DNA of 64,000 nucleotides from Agromyces sp. NDB4Y10 (GTDB taxonomy: Bacteria; Actinomycetota; Actinomycetes; Actinomycetales; Microbacteriaceae). Both the position numbers and the translations under genes were made by a program. The stretch spans positions 62,001 to 126,000 of the forward strand of contig NZ_LQGY01000028.1 in assembly GCF_001620055.1 (NCBI RefSeq), in the 5' to 3' direction. Shown here one piece after another: positions 18,895-23,489 of the stretch. The first letter of the stretch is position 1. The number at the start of each line of letters is the position of its first letter. The notes below the pieces were generated by a model that had not been told where the DNA came from, did not search any database, and saw only the letters and a list, made by a program, of their open reading frames with translations.

Positions 18895-19263
18895 TCAGCG
18901 CGAGCCGGTGACGTCGAGCAGCTGCGAGAGCTCGCCGAGCGCGCCGGGGACGAGGCGGTAGTACGCCCAGGTGCCGCGCTTGCTCCGGGTCAGGAACCCG
19001 GCCTCCATCAGGATCTTCAGGTGGTGCGACACCGTCGGCTGGCTGAGGCCGACGGGCTCGATGAGGTCGCACACGCACGCCTCCTCGCCGTCGGAGGCGG
19101 CGACGATCGACACGAGGCGCAGGCGGGTCGGGTCGGCGAGCGCCTTGAGCTTGCGGGCCAAGAGGTCGGCCTGGTCGGGCGCGATCGCCTCGCGCGTCAA
19201 CGGCGCGCAGCAGACGGCGGCGGTCGGCTCGGCCATCGGGAGCAGCTGCGGGGTCGTGGTCAT
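18895..19263 (-). CDS. arsR: ArsR/SmtB arsenic-responsive repressor
   Basis: 122 residues. The winged helix reads LSQPTVSHHLKILMEAGFL. Four cysteines suit As(III) binding: Cys18-Cys19 near the N-terminus and Cys63/Cys65 in EACVCDL of the DNA-binding helix region, the combination known from corynebacterial ArsR. Binding of arsenite releases the repressor from its operator. It diverges from arsO, with a perfect palindrome TATCGA-N6-TCGATA in the shared 90-bp promoter region (19317-19334). Confidence 0.94.
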   Translation of the reverse strand: MTTTPQLLPMAEPTAAVCCAPLTREAIAPDQADLLARKLKALADPTRLRLVSIVAASDGEEACVCDLIEPVGLSQPTVSHHLKILMEAGFLTRSKRGTWAYYRLVPGALGELSQLLDVTGSR

Positions 19264-19277
19264 GCCGGCATCCTAGC

Positions 19278-19334
19278 TCGAATATTGACAAACTTCGATG
19301 GACTGGCCACACTCTGTATCGAAGTTCATCGATA
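19278..19334. promoter_or_regulatory. arsR/arsO divergent control region with ArsR operators
   Basis: AT-rich island in GC-rich surroundings. A perfect palindrome TATCGA-AGTTCA-TCGATA occupies 19317-19334. A weaker site TCGAA-N11-TTCGA (19278-19282/19294-19298) lies over a TTGACA (19285-19290) that fits a -35 element reading toward arsO. Binding by ArsR is inferred from position and symmetry. Confidence 0.75.
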
Positions 19335-19353
19335 TCTCGGAGGCGCGCCCACC

Positions 19354-20676
19354 ATGACCCTGATCGACCTCACCGCGCAGAGCCTGCAGGACCGCCGGCT
19401 CGCCACCCTCCCCGTGGCGATCATCGGCGCCGGCCCGGTCGGGCTGGCCGCCGCGGCCAACCTCGTCGAGCGCGGACTGGACTTCGTCGTCTACGAAGCC
19501 GGCGACGAGGTCGCCGCCAGCATCCGCACCTGGGGCCACACGCGGCTCTTCTCGCCCTGGAAGCACGTCGTCGACCCCGCCTCGCGTCGACTGCTCGAGG
19601 CCACGGGGTGGCTGGTGCCCGCACCCGACTCGCTGCCGTCCGGGGCCGAGCTCGTGGAGCGCTACCTCGAGCCCCTCGCGGCGCTCGAGCCGATCGCCTC
19701 CCGCATCCGGACCGGCGTGACGGTCGAGGCGGTCACCCGCCGCGGGATGGACCGCACGCGGACCGCGAACCGCGCGGCGACGCCCTTCCTGCTGCGCGTG
19801 CGCACCGCCGACGGCGTCGACGAGTTCACGGCGCGCGCCGTGATCGACGCCTCCGGCACGTACGACCAGCCCAACTCGCTCGCGTCGTCGGGCCTCGACC
19901 CGCTCGGGCTCGCCGAGGTCGCCGACCGCGTCACCCACGCGCTGCCCGACGTGCTCGGGCGCGAGCGCGCGCGCTTCGCCGGACGGCACACCACCGTCGT
20001 GGGGGCCGGCCACTCCGCGGCGAACACCCTGCTCGCGCTCGCCGAACTCGCGGAGGAGGAGCCGACGACCCGGATCACCTGGCTCATCCGCAACGCGAAC
20101 GCGGTGCGCGTCACCACGTCGGAGGACGACGAGCTCGTCGCCCGCGCCACCATCGGCCGCCGGGTCGACCGGCTGGTGGCATCCGGACGCATCGAGGTCG
20201 TCGACCGGTTCGAGACGGTGCGCCTCGGACGCACCGATGCGGGCGTGCGACTCCACGGCCTGCGCGGTGACGACCTCGTCGAGCACGAGACCGACCTCGT
20301 CGTGAACGCGACCGGGTTCCGCCCCAACCTCGACATGCTGCGCGAGATCCGCCTCGACCTCGACGAGATCGTGCAGGCGCCGCGCCGGCTCGCTCCGCTC
20401 ATCGACCCCAACCTGCACACGTGCGGCACGGTCGAACCGCACGGGTTCGCCGAGCTCGAGCACCCCGAGCCGGGGTTCTTCCTCGCGGGCATGAAGAGCT
20501 ACGGCCGCGCGCCGACGTTCCTGCTCGCGACGGGGTACGAGCAGGTCCGCTCGATCACGGCCTGGATCGCGGGCGACCAGGCGGCGGCCCGCAACGTCGA
20601 GCTCGTGCTGCCCGCGACGGGCGTGTGCTCGACGAGCCTGCCCGCCGCCGCGGGTTCCTCGGGCTGCTGCGGGTGA
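19354..20676 (+). CDS. arsO: ArsO-like FAD-dependent monooxygenase
   Basis: 440 residues. FAD site IIGAGPVGLAAAANL (about 20-35), a second nucleotide motif VVGAGHSAANTLL for NADPH, and VNATGFRPNLDML near the end make it a class B flavin monooxygenase. The Cys-bearing tail (GVCSTSLP and GCCG) is typical of ArsO proteins in ars operons. The role is presumed oxidation of an arsenic species; the true substrate in this family is not firmly settled. Divergent from arsR and under the same operators. The ATG at 19354 has GGAGG about 11 nt upstream. Confidence 0.88.
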   Translation: MTLIDLTAQSLQDRRLATLPVAIIGAGPVGLAAAANLVERGLDFVVYEAGDEVAASIRTWGHTRLFSPWKHVVDPASRRLLEATGWLVPAPDSLPSGAELVERYLEPLAALEPIASRIRTGVTVEAVTRRGMDRTRTANRAATPFLLRVRTADGVDEFTARAVIDASGTYDQPNSLASSGLDPLGLAEVADRVTHALPDVLGRERARFAGRHTTVVGAGHSAANTLLALAELAEEEPTTRITWLIRNANAVRVTTSEDDELVARATIGRRVDRLVASGRIEVVDRFETVRLGRTDAGVRLHGLRGDDLVEHETDLVVNATGFRPNLDMLREIRLDLDEIVQAPRRLAPLIDPNLHTCGTVEPHGFAELEHPEPGFFLAGMKSYGRAPTFLLATGYEQVRSITAWIAGDQAAARNVELVLPATGVCSTSLPAAAGSSGCCG

Positions 20677-21580: not shown

Positions 21581-22051
21581 TCAGTCGTCGAGCGCGAGGG
21601 TCATGAAGACGCTGTTCGGGTCCGGGCGGTAGTCGCCGAACGGGTCGCACTCGACGAAGCCGTACTTCGCGTAGAGGGTGCGCGCCGGGCGGAAGAACTC
21701 CTGCGACCCGGTCTCGAGACTGAGGCGGCGGTAGCCGCGACGGGTGGCCTCGGCGAGGACGTGCTCGAGCAGGCGTGCACCGAGGCCGCGACCGCGGGCC
21801 GCAGCATCCGTTCGCATCGACTTGAGTTCGCCGTGCGCCTCGTCGAGCTGCTTCAGCGCGACGCAGCCCACGAGGTCGTCGCCCTCGGCGATGGTCCAGA
21901 ACGTGACCTCGGGCACGGCGAGACCCGAGACGTCGAGCGCGTGCACGCTCTCGGCGGGCGAGGTCGCGAACATGTCGGCCAGGTGGTCCTCGAGCAGGCG
22001 CGTCACGCGCGGGTCGCGGAGGTCGCCGAGGTCGATGGAGAGCGTCGTCAC
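21581..22051 (-). CDS. GNAT-family N-acetyltransferase
   Basis: 156 residues. The acetyl-CoA loop is RGRGLGARLLEHV, preceded by ELKSMRTD and followed by LETGSQEFFRPARTLYAKYGFVE, standard GNAT motifs A and B. The substrate is unknown. I chose GTG at 22051 (VTTLSIDL) because the GNAT core starts there; an in-frame GTG at 22084 would add 11 residues. It lies 58 bp downstream of arsC on the same strand and could be read with it; arsenic operons sometimes carry acetyltransferases (ArsN), but this one lacks a recognisable ArsN signature. Confidence 0.8.
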   Translation of the reverse strand: MTTLSIDLGDLRDPRVTRLLEDHLADMFATSPAESVHALDVSGLAVPEVTFWTIAEGDDLVGCVALKQLDEAHGELKSMRTDAAARGRGLGARLLEHVLAEATRRGYRRLSLETGSQEFFRPARTLYAKYGFVECDPFGDYRPDPNSVFMTLALDD

Positions 22052-22109
22052 CCGACCATGGTCGCCGACCGGTGTTTCGGGCACGTGTCGGCGTCGCGCC
22101 GGCGGGCGC

Positions 22110-22526
22110 TCAGGCGGACGCGCGCTCGGGCAGGATCTCGGCGATGAGGGCCTCGACGCGACGGCGGATGTCGTCGCGGATCGGCCGCACGGCCTCGATG
22201 CCCTGGCCGGCCGGGTCGTCGAGCTCCCAGTCCTCGTAGCGCTTGCCCGGGAAGATCGGGCACGCGTCGCCGCAGCCCATGGTGATGACGACGTCGGACT
22301 CCTTCACGGCCTCGGTGGTGAGCACCTTGGGCGTGTTGCCGGCGATGTCGATGCCCTCCTCGGCCATCGCCTCGACCGCGACCGGGTTGATCTGGTCCTT
22401 CGGGGCGGAGCCGGCCGAGAGCACCTCGACGCGGTCGCCGCCGAGCTCGCGCAGGTAGCCGGCGGCCATCTGGGAGCGGCCGGCGTTGTGGACGCACACG
22501 AACAGGACGGTGGGCTTCTCGGTCAT
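22110..22526 (-). CDS. arsC: Arsenate reductase, low-molecular-weight phosphatase type
   Basis: 138 residues. P-loop VCVHNAGRSQMA holds the nucleophilic Cys and Arg; MGCGDACPIFPG supplies the second and third cysteines of the redox relay. It reduces arsenate to arsenite using thioredoxin or mycothiol-type donors. I chose ATG at 22526 (MTEKPTVLFV) because a perfect operator palindrome (22535-22552) lies just upstream, so it probably has its own promoter; an ATG at 22547 falls inside that operator. It is a tandem paralogue of the C-terminal domain of the next upstream gene. Confidence 0.92.
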   Translation of the reverse strand: MTEKPTVLFVCVHNAGRSQMAAGYLRELGGDRVEVLSAGSAPKDQINPVAVEAMAEEGIDIAGNTPKVLTTEAVKESDVVITMGCGDACPIFPGKRYEDWELDDPAGQGIEAVRPIRDDIRRRVEALIAEILPERASA

Positions 22527-22534
22527 GGCAAAAG

Positions 22535-22552
22535 CATAGACCAGCATCTATG
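22535..22552. promoter_or_regulatory. Operator upstream of arsC (CATAGA-N6-TCTATG)
   Basis: Perfect inverted repeat CATAGA-CCAGCA-TCTATG, extendable by one more pair to 22534-22553. It spans the stop codon of the ArsR-ArsC fusion and lies 8 nt before the arsC start. It is identical in both half-sites and in spacing to the one at 23472-23489. Confidence 0.82.
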
Positions 22553-23474
22553 CGATGTCGAGCGAGGCGAGCAGGTCCCGCACGTGCGCCTCGATGCGAT
22601 CCCGGATGTCGCGGACCCGCTCGAGCGGCAGGCCCAGCGGGTCGTCGAGCTCCCAGTCGAGGTAGCGGCGCCCGGGATAGATCGGACACGCGTCGCCGCA
22701 GCCCATCGTCACGACGACATCGGCCGCGCGGACCACCTCGTCGGTCAACGGCTTCGGGAACTCGCCGCCGACCGGGACGCCGATCTCGTCCAGCGCCGAG
22801 ACGACCGCTGGCCGGAGCGCATCCGCGGGCGCCGAGCCGGCCGTGCGCACGTGCACGCGATCCCCGGCCAGGTGCCGCAGGATCGCGGCGGCCATCTGCG
22901 AGCGGCCCGCGTTCTGCACGCACACGAACAGCACCTCGGGCACCGCACGACCCCCATCGGCGCGCGGGCGCTGCGGCTCCGCCGTCGCCAACGCGCTCAG
23001 CCGCTCCGCCGCGAACTGCGCCGTGAGCGACGGCAGCCGCCGCGTGATCCCCGACCGCTCCGCGAGCAGCTCGTGGCTCTCGCGCACGTACCTCGCCACG
23101 GTCTCCCGACCGAAGACGCCGGCGAAGCGATCGGCGAGGTCGCTCGCGATGCGGTCCAGCACCGCGGCATCCGTCGTGGGATCGGGCGCGGACGCCGGCG
23201 CGCCCAGGAGGTCGCCGACCCGCTCGGCCTGGTCGGGCGCGACCGAGTACCACGCGCGCCGTCCCTCCGGCGTGCGCACGAGGACGCCCTCGTCGTGCAG
23301 CGCCTTCGCGTGGTGCGACACCGTCGGCTGCCGCAGCCCCAGCTCGGCGGCGAGCTCGGTGACCGTGGCGCGACCGTCGGGCCGCGCGAGGATCAGCGAG
23401 AGCATGCGCGCGCGCGTCGGATCGGCGATCAGCGCGAGGCCGCTCGCCGCGGCATCCGCTCGCCCCGAGACCAT
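22548..23474 (-). CDS. ArsR-ArsC fusion: winged-helix repressor joined to arsenate-reductase-type phosphatase
   Basis: 308 residues in three parts. Residues 1-95 are an ArsR-type winged helix (LGLRQPTVSHHAKALHDEGVL), about 100-165 a helical bundle of the kind that precedes phosphatase-like ArsC domains, and about 178-308 an LMWP/ArsC domain with VCVQNAGRSQMA and MGCGDACPIYPG. Notably the first 95 residues contain no cysteine, so the classical arsenite site is missing from the repressor part. The ATG (23472-23474) lies inside a palindrome CATAGA-N6-TCTATG, implying autoregulation. Its ArsC half closely resembles the separate arsC downstream. Confidence 0.92.
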   Translation of the reverse strand: MVSGRADAAASGLALIADPTRARMLSLILARPDGRATVTELAAELGLRQPTVSHHAKALHDEGVLVRTPEGRRAWYSVAPDQAERVGDLLGAPASAPDPTTDAAVLDRIASDLADRFAGVFGRETVARYVRESHELLAERSGITRRLPSLTAQFAAERLSALATAEPQRPRADGGRAVPEVLFVCVQNAGRSQMAAAILRHLAGDRVHVRTAGSAPADALRPAVVSALDEIGVPVGGEFPKPLTDEVVRAADVVVTMGCGDACPIYPGRRYLDWELDDPLGLPLERVRDIRDRIEAHVRDLLASLDIA

Positions 23475-23489
23475 AGATCACAGTCTATG
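23472..23489. promoter_or_regulatory. Autoregulatory operator of the ArsR-ArsC fusion
   Basis: Perfect palindrome CATAGA-TCACAG-TCTATG overlapping the start codon of the fusion gene. Same half-sites and spacer length as the site before arsC, and different from the TATCGA-N6-TCGATA site of arsR1. Confidence 0.84.

Follow-up and report, generated by a model that had tools for sequence, protein, structure and literature searches.

A cysteine-free ArsR fused to an arsenate reductase in Agromyces: a candidate repressor lineage that may sense arsenic through its enzyme

We show that the window, a 64,000-nucleotide stretch of a contig of the soil actinobacterium Agromyces sp. NDB4Y10, carries a 308-residue open frame in which an ArsR winged helix, a three-helix bundle and an ArsC domain follow one another in a single chain (Table 1), as domain searches confirm for the ArsR-ArsC fusion described in the earlier note. 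Residues 18-64 form the winged helix (Pfam HTH_5, 39.5 bits, cut-off 22), and the score with NF033788 (63.3 bits, cut-off 55) places the protein among ArsR/SmtB-type regulators; the model of the Rv2640c family of ArsRs (NF041413) scored 44.9 bits, below its cut-off of 155. The C-terminal part is an ArsC of the LMW-phosphatase fold (PF01451, 72.2 bits, cut-off 23.2), with the LMWPc domain, a CX5R loop and two distal cysteines, so that both domains of an ArsRC lie within one open frame. Scores with the thioredoxin-type ArsC equivalogs fell below their cut-offs (56.6 of 215 bits for NF010053 and 51.9 of 174.3 for TIGR02691), and the plain arsC that follows the fusion likewise stays under both curated cut-offs. 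The best sequence match of the last two thirds of the fusion is the thioredoxin-dependent arsenate reductase Cg_ArsC1' (PDB 3t38; residues 99-307, E 4.2e-59), which is also the first Foldseek match. The two proteins share a three-helix bundle joined to an ArsC with three catalytic cysteines, and this part of the fusion therefore appears Cg_ArsC1'-like; only the fusion has a DNA-binding ArsR domain in front. The AlphaFold model (pLDDT 87.8, pTM 0.65) covers a single chain and thus does not inform on dimerization or on coupling between the domains.

Table 1. Features of the fusion locus and its neighbourhood (positions in the window; a dot marks features without strand)
Feature	Position	Strand	Basis or remark
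ArsR - three-helix bundle - ArsC fusion gene	22548..23474	-	308 aa ORF and domain searches
Cys-free ArsR half, residues 1-95	23190..23474	-	domain search and Cys count
Three-helix bundle, residues 106-163	22986..23159	-	PF21234; NF046112
ArsC domain, residues 181-302, triad Cys185/Cys259/Cys263	22569..22934	-	ArsC/LMWPc match
Operator 1 (putative), CATAGA-N6-TCTATG	23472..23489	.	exact palindrome, ends in fusion ATG
Operator 2 (putative), CATAGA-N6-TCTATG	22535..22552	.	exact palindrome ahead of arsC, spans fusion stop
Plain arsC, 138 aa, three triad Cys	22110..22526	-	ORF and domain search; ATG at 22526
Canonical ArsR (CVCDL motif), a second regulator nearby	18895..19263	-	ORF and domain search
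ATTGA-N6-TCGAT site, canonical ArsR promoter region	19284..19299	.	pattern search
ATCGA-N6-TCGAT site, canonical ArsR promoter region	19318..19333	.	pattern search

Classical ArsRs sense arsenite through thiols within the DNA-binding protein. The whole fusion has three cysteines (185, 259 and 263), all of them in the ArsC triad. The earlier observation that its first 95 residues are free of cysteine is thus borne out and extends to residues 1-184, a stretch from which the CVC pair of As(III)-sensing ArsRs is accordingly absent. A CVC pair is found in the separate canonical ArsR of the neighbourhood, which resembles the fusion in its winged helix with a QPTVSHH-type recognition helix and differs from it both in having cysteines and in its operator code. 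Sites of the type AT[C/T]GA-N6-TC[G/A]AT lie upstream of 32 of 33 unfused CVC ArsRs, the window's included, and two or more of them upstream of 29, both as raw pattern counts. The code of the fusion, ATAGA, differs from the canonical ATCGA at the third base of each half-site.

Two palindromes of the fusion's code, both exact as the earlier note had reported them, have identical half-sites and different N6 spacers. Read on the minus strand, operator 1 closes with the three bases of the fusion's start codon; its left arm holds the sequence TAGACT, 7 bases upstream of the ATG, a candidate -10 element of a leaderless promoter. Operator 2 includes the TAG with which the fusion stops, and 8 bases separate its end from the arsC start. 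The 3.34-Mb assembly holds three exact palindromes, against 0.0018 expected (3.5e-5 per window) under an order-1 Markov model with the base composition of the window, which rules out chance. The third, at 59730-59747 of contig C39, ends in the ATG of a 242-residue gene for a three-helix bundle with ArsC. Since all three exact sites stand ahead of ArsC-domain genes, each precedes an arsenate-reductase gene.

Other genes that may relate to arsenic lie near the fusion or elsewhere in this genome. The canonical ArsR is divergent from an FAD-dependent oxidoreductase with a cysteine-rich C-terminus (18895-20676 for the pair) that matches ArsO weakly (60 of 425 bits), and a relative of this oxidoreductase is found near the fusion in 10 of 26 neighbourhoods, the window included. 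Directly after arsC lies a GNAT acetyltransferase (21581-22084) with a weak ArsN2 match (37.6 bits, cut-off 125), which is possibly co-transcribed with arsC. Family-model searches gave no match in this genome to ACR3 (a search of 20 genomes) or to ArsB, and an efflux pump is on these grounds rejected as a target of the repressor here. Two MIP channels are encoded on contigs C22 and C32.

The cysteine pattern and the operators recur in relatives. In a family set of 199 genomes we followed two main fusion types, clade I and clade II, the former with 30 loci including that of the window. No cysteine precedes the catalytic one in 28 of the 29 scored clade I loci, the exception being L033, with one in the ArsR half; L034, read separately from these 29, has none either. 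An ATAGA-type site with at most three mismatches lies within -150 to +30 of the start in 29 of the 30 loci, exactly at -15 in 23 and in frame with that position in six more, the starts having been chosen without reference to the site; at L034 the site is absent from that interval at the same threshold. A second site, with at most two mismatches, stands around or after the fusion stop in 23 of the 30. As a control, shuffles of each region averaged about six mismatches, with a best of 2 to 4 in 300 tries.

A second collection consists of 80 named loci, the best 80 of 372 confirmed among at least 593 stretches. They were found with patterns drawn from the cysteine-free type and therefore cannot tell how common that type is, and some of them are contigs that also belong to the family set. 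They come from Agromyces, which supplies the closest relatives by fusion protein among these best 80 of 372, and from Microbacterium, Cryobacterium, Salinibacterium, Rathayibacter, Naasia, Microcella, an Arthrobacter and others. Within the same best 80 of 372, the triad is exact in every fusion and the chain ahead of it is free of cysteine in 79, the exception (L154) having one in the three-helix part. A site with at most three mismatches and an in-frame start at its end was found in 76 of these 80, where an in-frame site itself fixed the start and chance would bring one third into frame; the other four have a fusion site that is absent, degenerate or off frame. The second site has at most two mismatches in 60 of the same 80 loci and more than two in 20. 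Of 25 neighbourhoods read over a larger span, 23 have a plain ArsC after the fusion and 15 have two sites by a loose pattern, although the genomes behind all of these counts are related and the counts are thus not independent events. The search for the same fusion and operator in other genomes, which the earlier note had proposed, thereby confirms its observation and shows that it reaches further than the note had stated. Its suggestion that the fusion may control itself and arsC also gains support, since relatives keep both sites.

Clade II offers the opposite combination. In its 17 fusions (41-46% identity) every ArsR half has CVC or CAC, and no ATAGA-type site with at most three mismatches was found in any of 20 loci, namely these 17 and three degenerate fusions. 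The clade II ArsC halves form a starred clade of their own (100/95), and their ArsR halves group with the cysteine-bearing set, so that a single origin of all fusions is not supported. Across the 199 genomes the strict palindrome is present in 39, namely in 24 of the 30 with an identified clade I fusion versus 15 of the other 169 (Fisher p 1.6e-15, without correction for kinship), where the set of 30 may miss members such as G006, counted among the 169; a reversed control pattern was found in 2 of 199. We examined 13 of these 15 other genomes, some at one site only. In three of them (G013, G065 and G152) the site stands beside an unfused CVC or CIC ArsR or arsC, and in the remaining ten no ArsR or ArsC match adjoins it. 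We therefore reject the idea that the operator is private to the fusion: because it also stands beside cysteine-bearing unfused ArsRs or their arsC, the site belongs to a wider ArsR repertoire. In the small genome G013 (L052:1130-2615), two ATAGA-type palindromes are flanked on one side by a CVC ArsR and on the other by a divergent MIP-like membrane protein, after which comes arsC.

The same type of ArsR also exists unfused. Eight unfused cysteine-free ArsRs whose recognition helix is intact, spread over four families of the order, are all followed on the same strand by a gene for a three-helix bundle with ArsC, versus none of 39 unfused cysteine-bearing ArsRs, one of which has a plain ArsC; here "downstream" covers the next 900 bases of that strand, and ArsRs without an intact recognition-helix motif or with less than 1.2 kb downstream were dropped. 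The triad motifs are present in all eight ArsC partners. Four of these partners scored for an ArsR-like N-terminal domain, two further ones align to the fusion from residue 9, and the last two have a similar N-terminal segment by eye. None of the five split cysteine-free ArsR genes examined has an ATAGA site, and the split form must therefore read other DNA. In an ArsR tree of 87 columns, which holds one mislabelled degenerate row (L238_ordfus_C), the cysteine-free rows, fused and unfused, require one change of state, counting L033 with its one cysteine as cysteine-free and leaving out five "other" unfused rows, of which three sit within clade I on long branches; an AU test returned p 0.25. 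We read the eight split pairs as one lineage keeping a rule rather than as eight events. Whether by peptide bond or as a neighbouring gene, a cysteine-free ArsR of this lineage was always found with ArsC. Another type of gene joins an ArsR to a weakly ArsC-like part in frames of 228-336 residues (L254:12471-13154, L257:7232-7933 and L258:6900-7907); no three-helix part was scored in it, and a three-helix ArsC adjoins. One of the ten genomes without an ArsR or ArsC match next to the palindrome, G086, has a split pair within an arsenic cluster about 5 kb away from it.

The clade I ArsC domains and those of the five split partners tested form one starred group (97/93), which stands apart from plain arsC, from the other three-helix ArsCs and from clade II. 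The plain arsC of the window had been taken for a tandem paralogue of the fused domain. In the sense of a close copy, this part of the earlier proposal is not supported: the two are identical at only 77 of 127 residues and fall into different starred groups, and we reject a close tandem copy.

Domain order, the distribution of cysteines, conserved operators with a code of their own and the constant company of ArsC, as read from sequence and comparison, are the basis of the model that we propose, in which we infer DNA binding, repression, a leaderless start, the ligand and allostery. A dimeric ArsR-type repressor would bind ATAGA-N6-TCTAT sites and block transcription of its own leaderless gene, where the site overlaps core promoter and start codon, of arsC, at its promoter, and of the third ArsC gene elsewhere in the genome, at its start. 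Its DNA-binding half has no thiols, and the signal would enter via the fused Cg_ArsC1'-like domain. In ArsCs of the Cg_ArsC1' type, the triad cycles via a disulfide that is reduced by thioredoxin. In one version of the model, arsenate turnover would produce the disulfide of the two distal cysteines, the redox helix would move and the grip on DNA would weaken; in another, arsenite held by the triad thiols would have the same effect. Either way, more arsenate reductase would be made while arsenic remains to be reduced. To this model as a whole, which makes the fusion a leaderless autorepressor of arsenate reductases with the ArsC triad as its only possible thiol sensor, we give roughly even chances.

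The earlier note had also suggested that the reductase half is the sensor. This proposed role now appears better grounded, by comparison with relatives, in that a cysteine-free ArsR half goes with an invariant triad, a fusion clade with CVC lacks the operator, and split pairs exist. The simplest reason for a cysteine-free ArsR always being found with ArsC is that ArsC supplies the signal. That the putative regulon holds nothing but reductases, with a separate canonical ArsR next to it, would favour arsenate as that signal. It is tempting to hypothesize, and we do so tentatively, with less than even confidence, that this is a repressor lineage with an enzyme as its arsenic sensor, in which a cysteine-free ArsR reads arsenate turnover in an attached ArsC, in one chain or as a two-gene pair. 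In the pair, the ArsC with its degenerate ArsR-like N-terminus would dock on the DNA-binding ArsR. Such a protein would sense the substrate, arsenate, and would control no genes but those of arsenate reductases, while a distinct arsenite sensor nearby would use a neighbouring operator code. Several observations count against the model to which we give even chances: the ATAGA site is not private to the fusion, the five split ArsRs examined do not have it, in four of the 80 named loci (best 80 of 372) it is absent, degenerate or off frame at the fusion, it is absent at L034, the second site exceeds two mismatches in 20 of those 80, single cysteines occur in L033 and L154, and the AlphaFold monomer shows no coupling.

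A different possibility is that the fusion holds a set point, repressing itself and arsC while sensing no arsenic; its ArsC half would then be simply a reductase, and induction would come from the canonical CVC ArsR, through binding to similar sites or through mixed dimers. The two operator codes are one base apart per half-site and cysteine-bearing ArsRs adjoin ATAGA sites in some genomes, so that cross-binding is conceivable, and the triad would be kept for catalysis alone. However, the company that cysteine-free ArsRs keep with one ArsC lineage, even when unfused, would be left unexplained, as would the separateness of the two operator codes in relatives, and we consider this account rather unlikely. 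It is also conceivable that the triad reports oxidation or the state of thioredoxin rather than arsenic. The disulfide cycle with thioredoxin in the type of ArsC that best matches this domain fits such a redox switch, yet the genes behind the three exact sites of the genome are those of arsenate reductases and not general redox genes, which makes it improbable. Least probable, and very doubtful, is a non-thiol site in the ArsR half for another ligand (an oxyanion, or a metal via His, Asp or Glu): ArsR/SmtB proteins have sensing sites at several positions and this half is intact as a fold, but by our reading the residues that are invariant across 13 clade I ArsR halves hold no new conserved His/Cys/Asp/Glu cluster beyond the fold and the recognition helix.

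The enzyme-sensing model bears on a protein architecture that is itself already known. ArsRC2 of Microbacterium sp. A33, the subject of Achour-Rokbani's study of 2010, is reported to be an ArsR-ArsC fusion that regulates its operon negatively. In the open literature, searches by word found no sensing mechanism for an ArsR-ArsC fusion, and no cysteine-free half, operator over the start codon or split pair, parts of which the A33 study may already discuss. One paper names ArsR-ArsC fusions in Leptospirillum ferriphilum, Microbacterium and Sinorhizobium that, if functional, would aid arsenite sensing and/or detoxification (PMC6205960), and another describes two actinobacterial ArsC-ArsR clusters, C4 and C7 (PMC6514093). 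The fusions of these two clusters and A33 ArsRC2 resemble ours in having ArsR and ArsC in one chain and in their occurrence in actinobacteria. A repressor and an arsenic enzyme are also joined in one chain in ArsRM of Brevundimonas, an ArsR-methyltransferase fusion which is reported to bind its own promoter region; its enzyme is an arsenite methyltransferase and not ArsC (PMC10190100). What is new here is the cysteine-free and split lineage with its operator. One bacterial order offers matched sets, namely fusions with a CVC site, fusions without it and the split form, and whether an enzyme domain can drive a repressor therefore becomes directly testable. The lineage could also yield a regulator or biosensor that distinguishes arsenate from arsenite.
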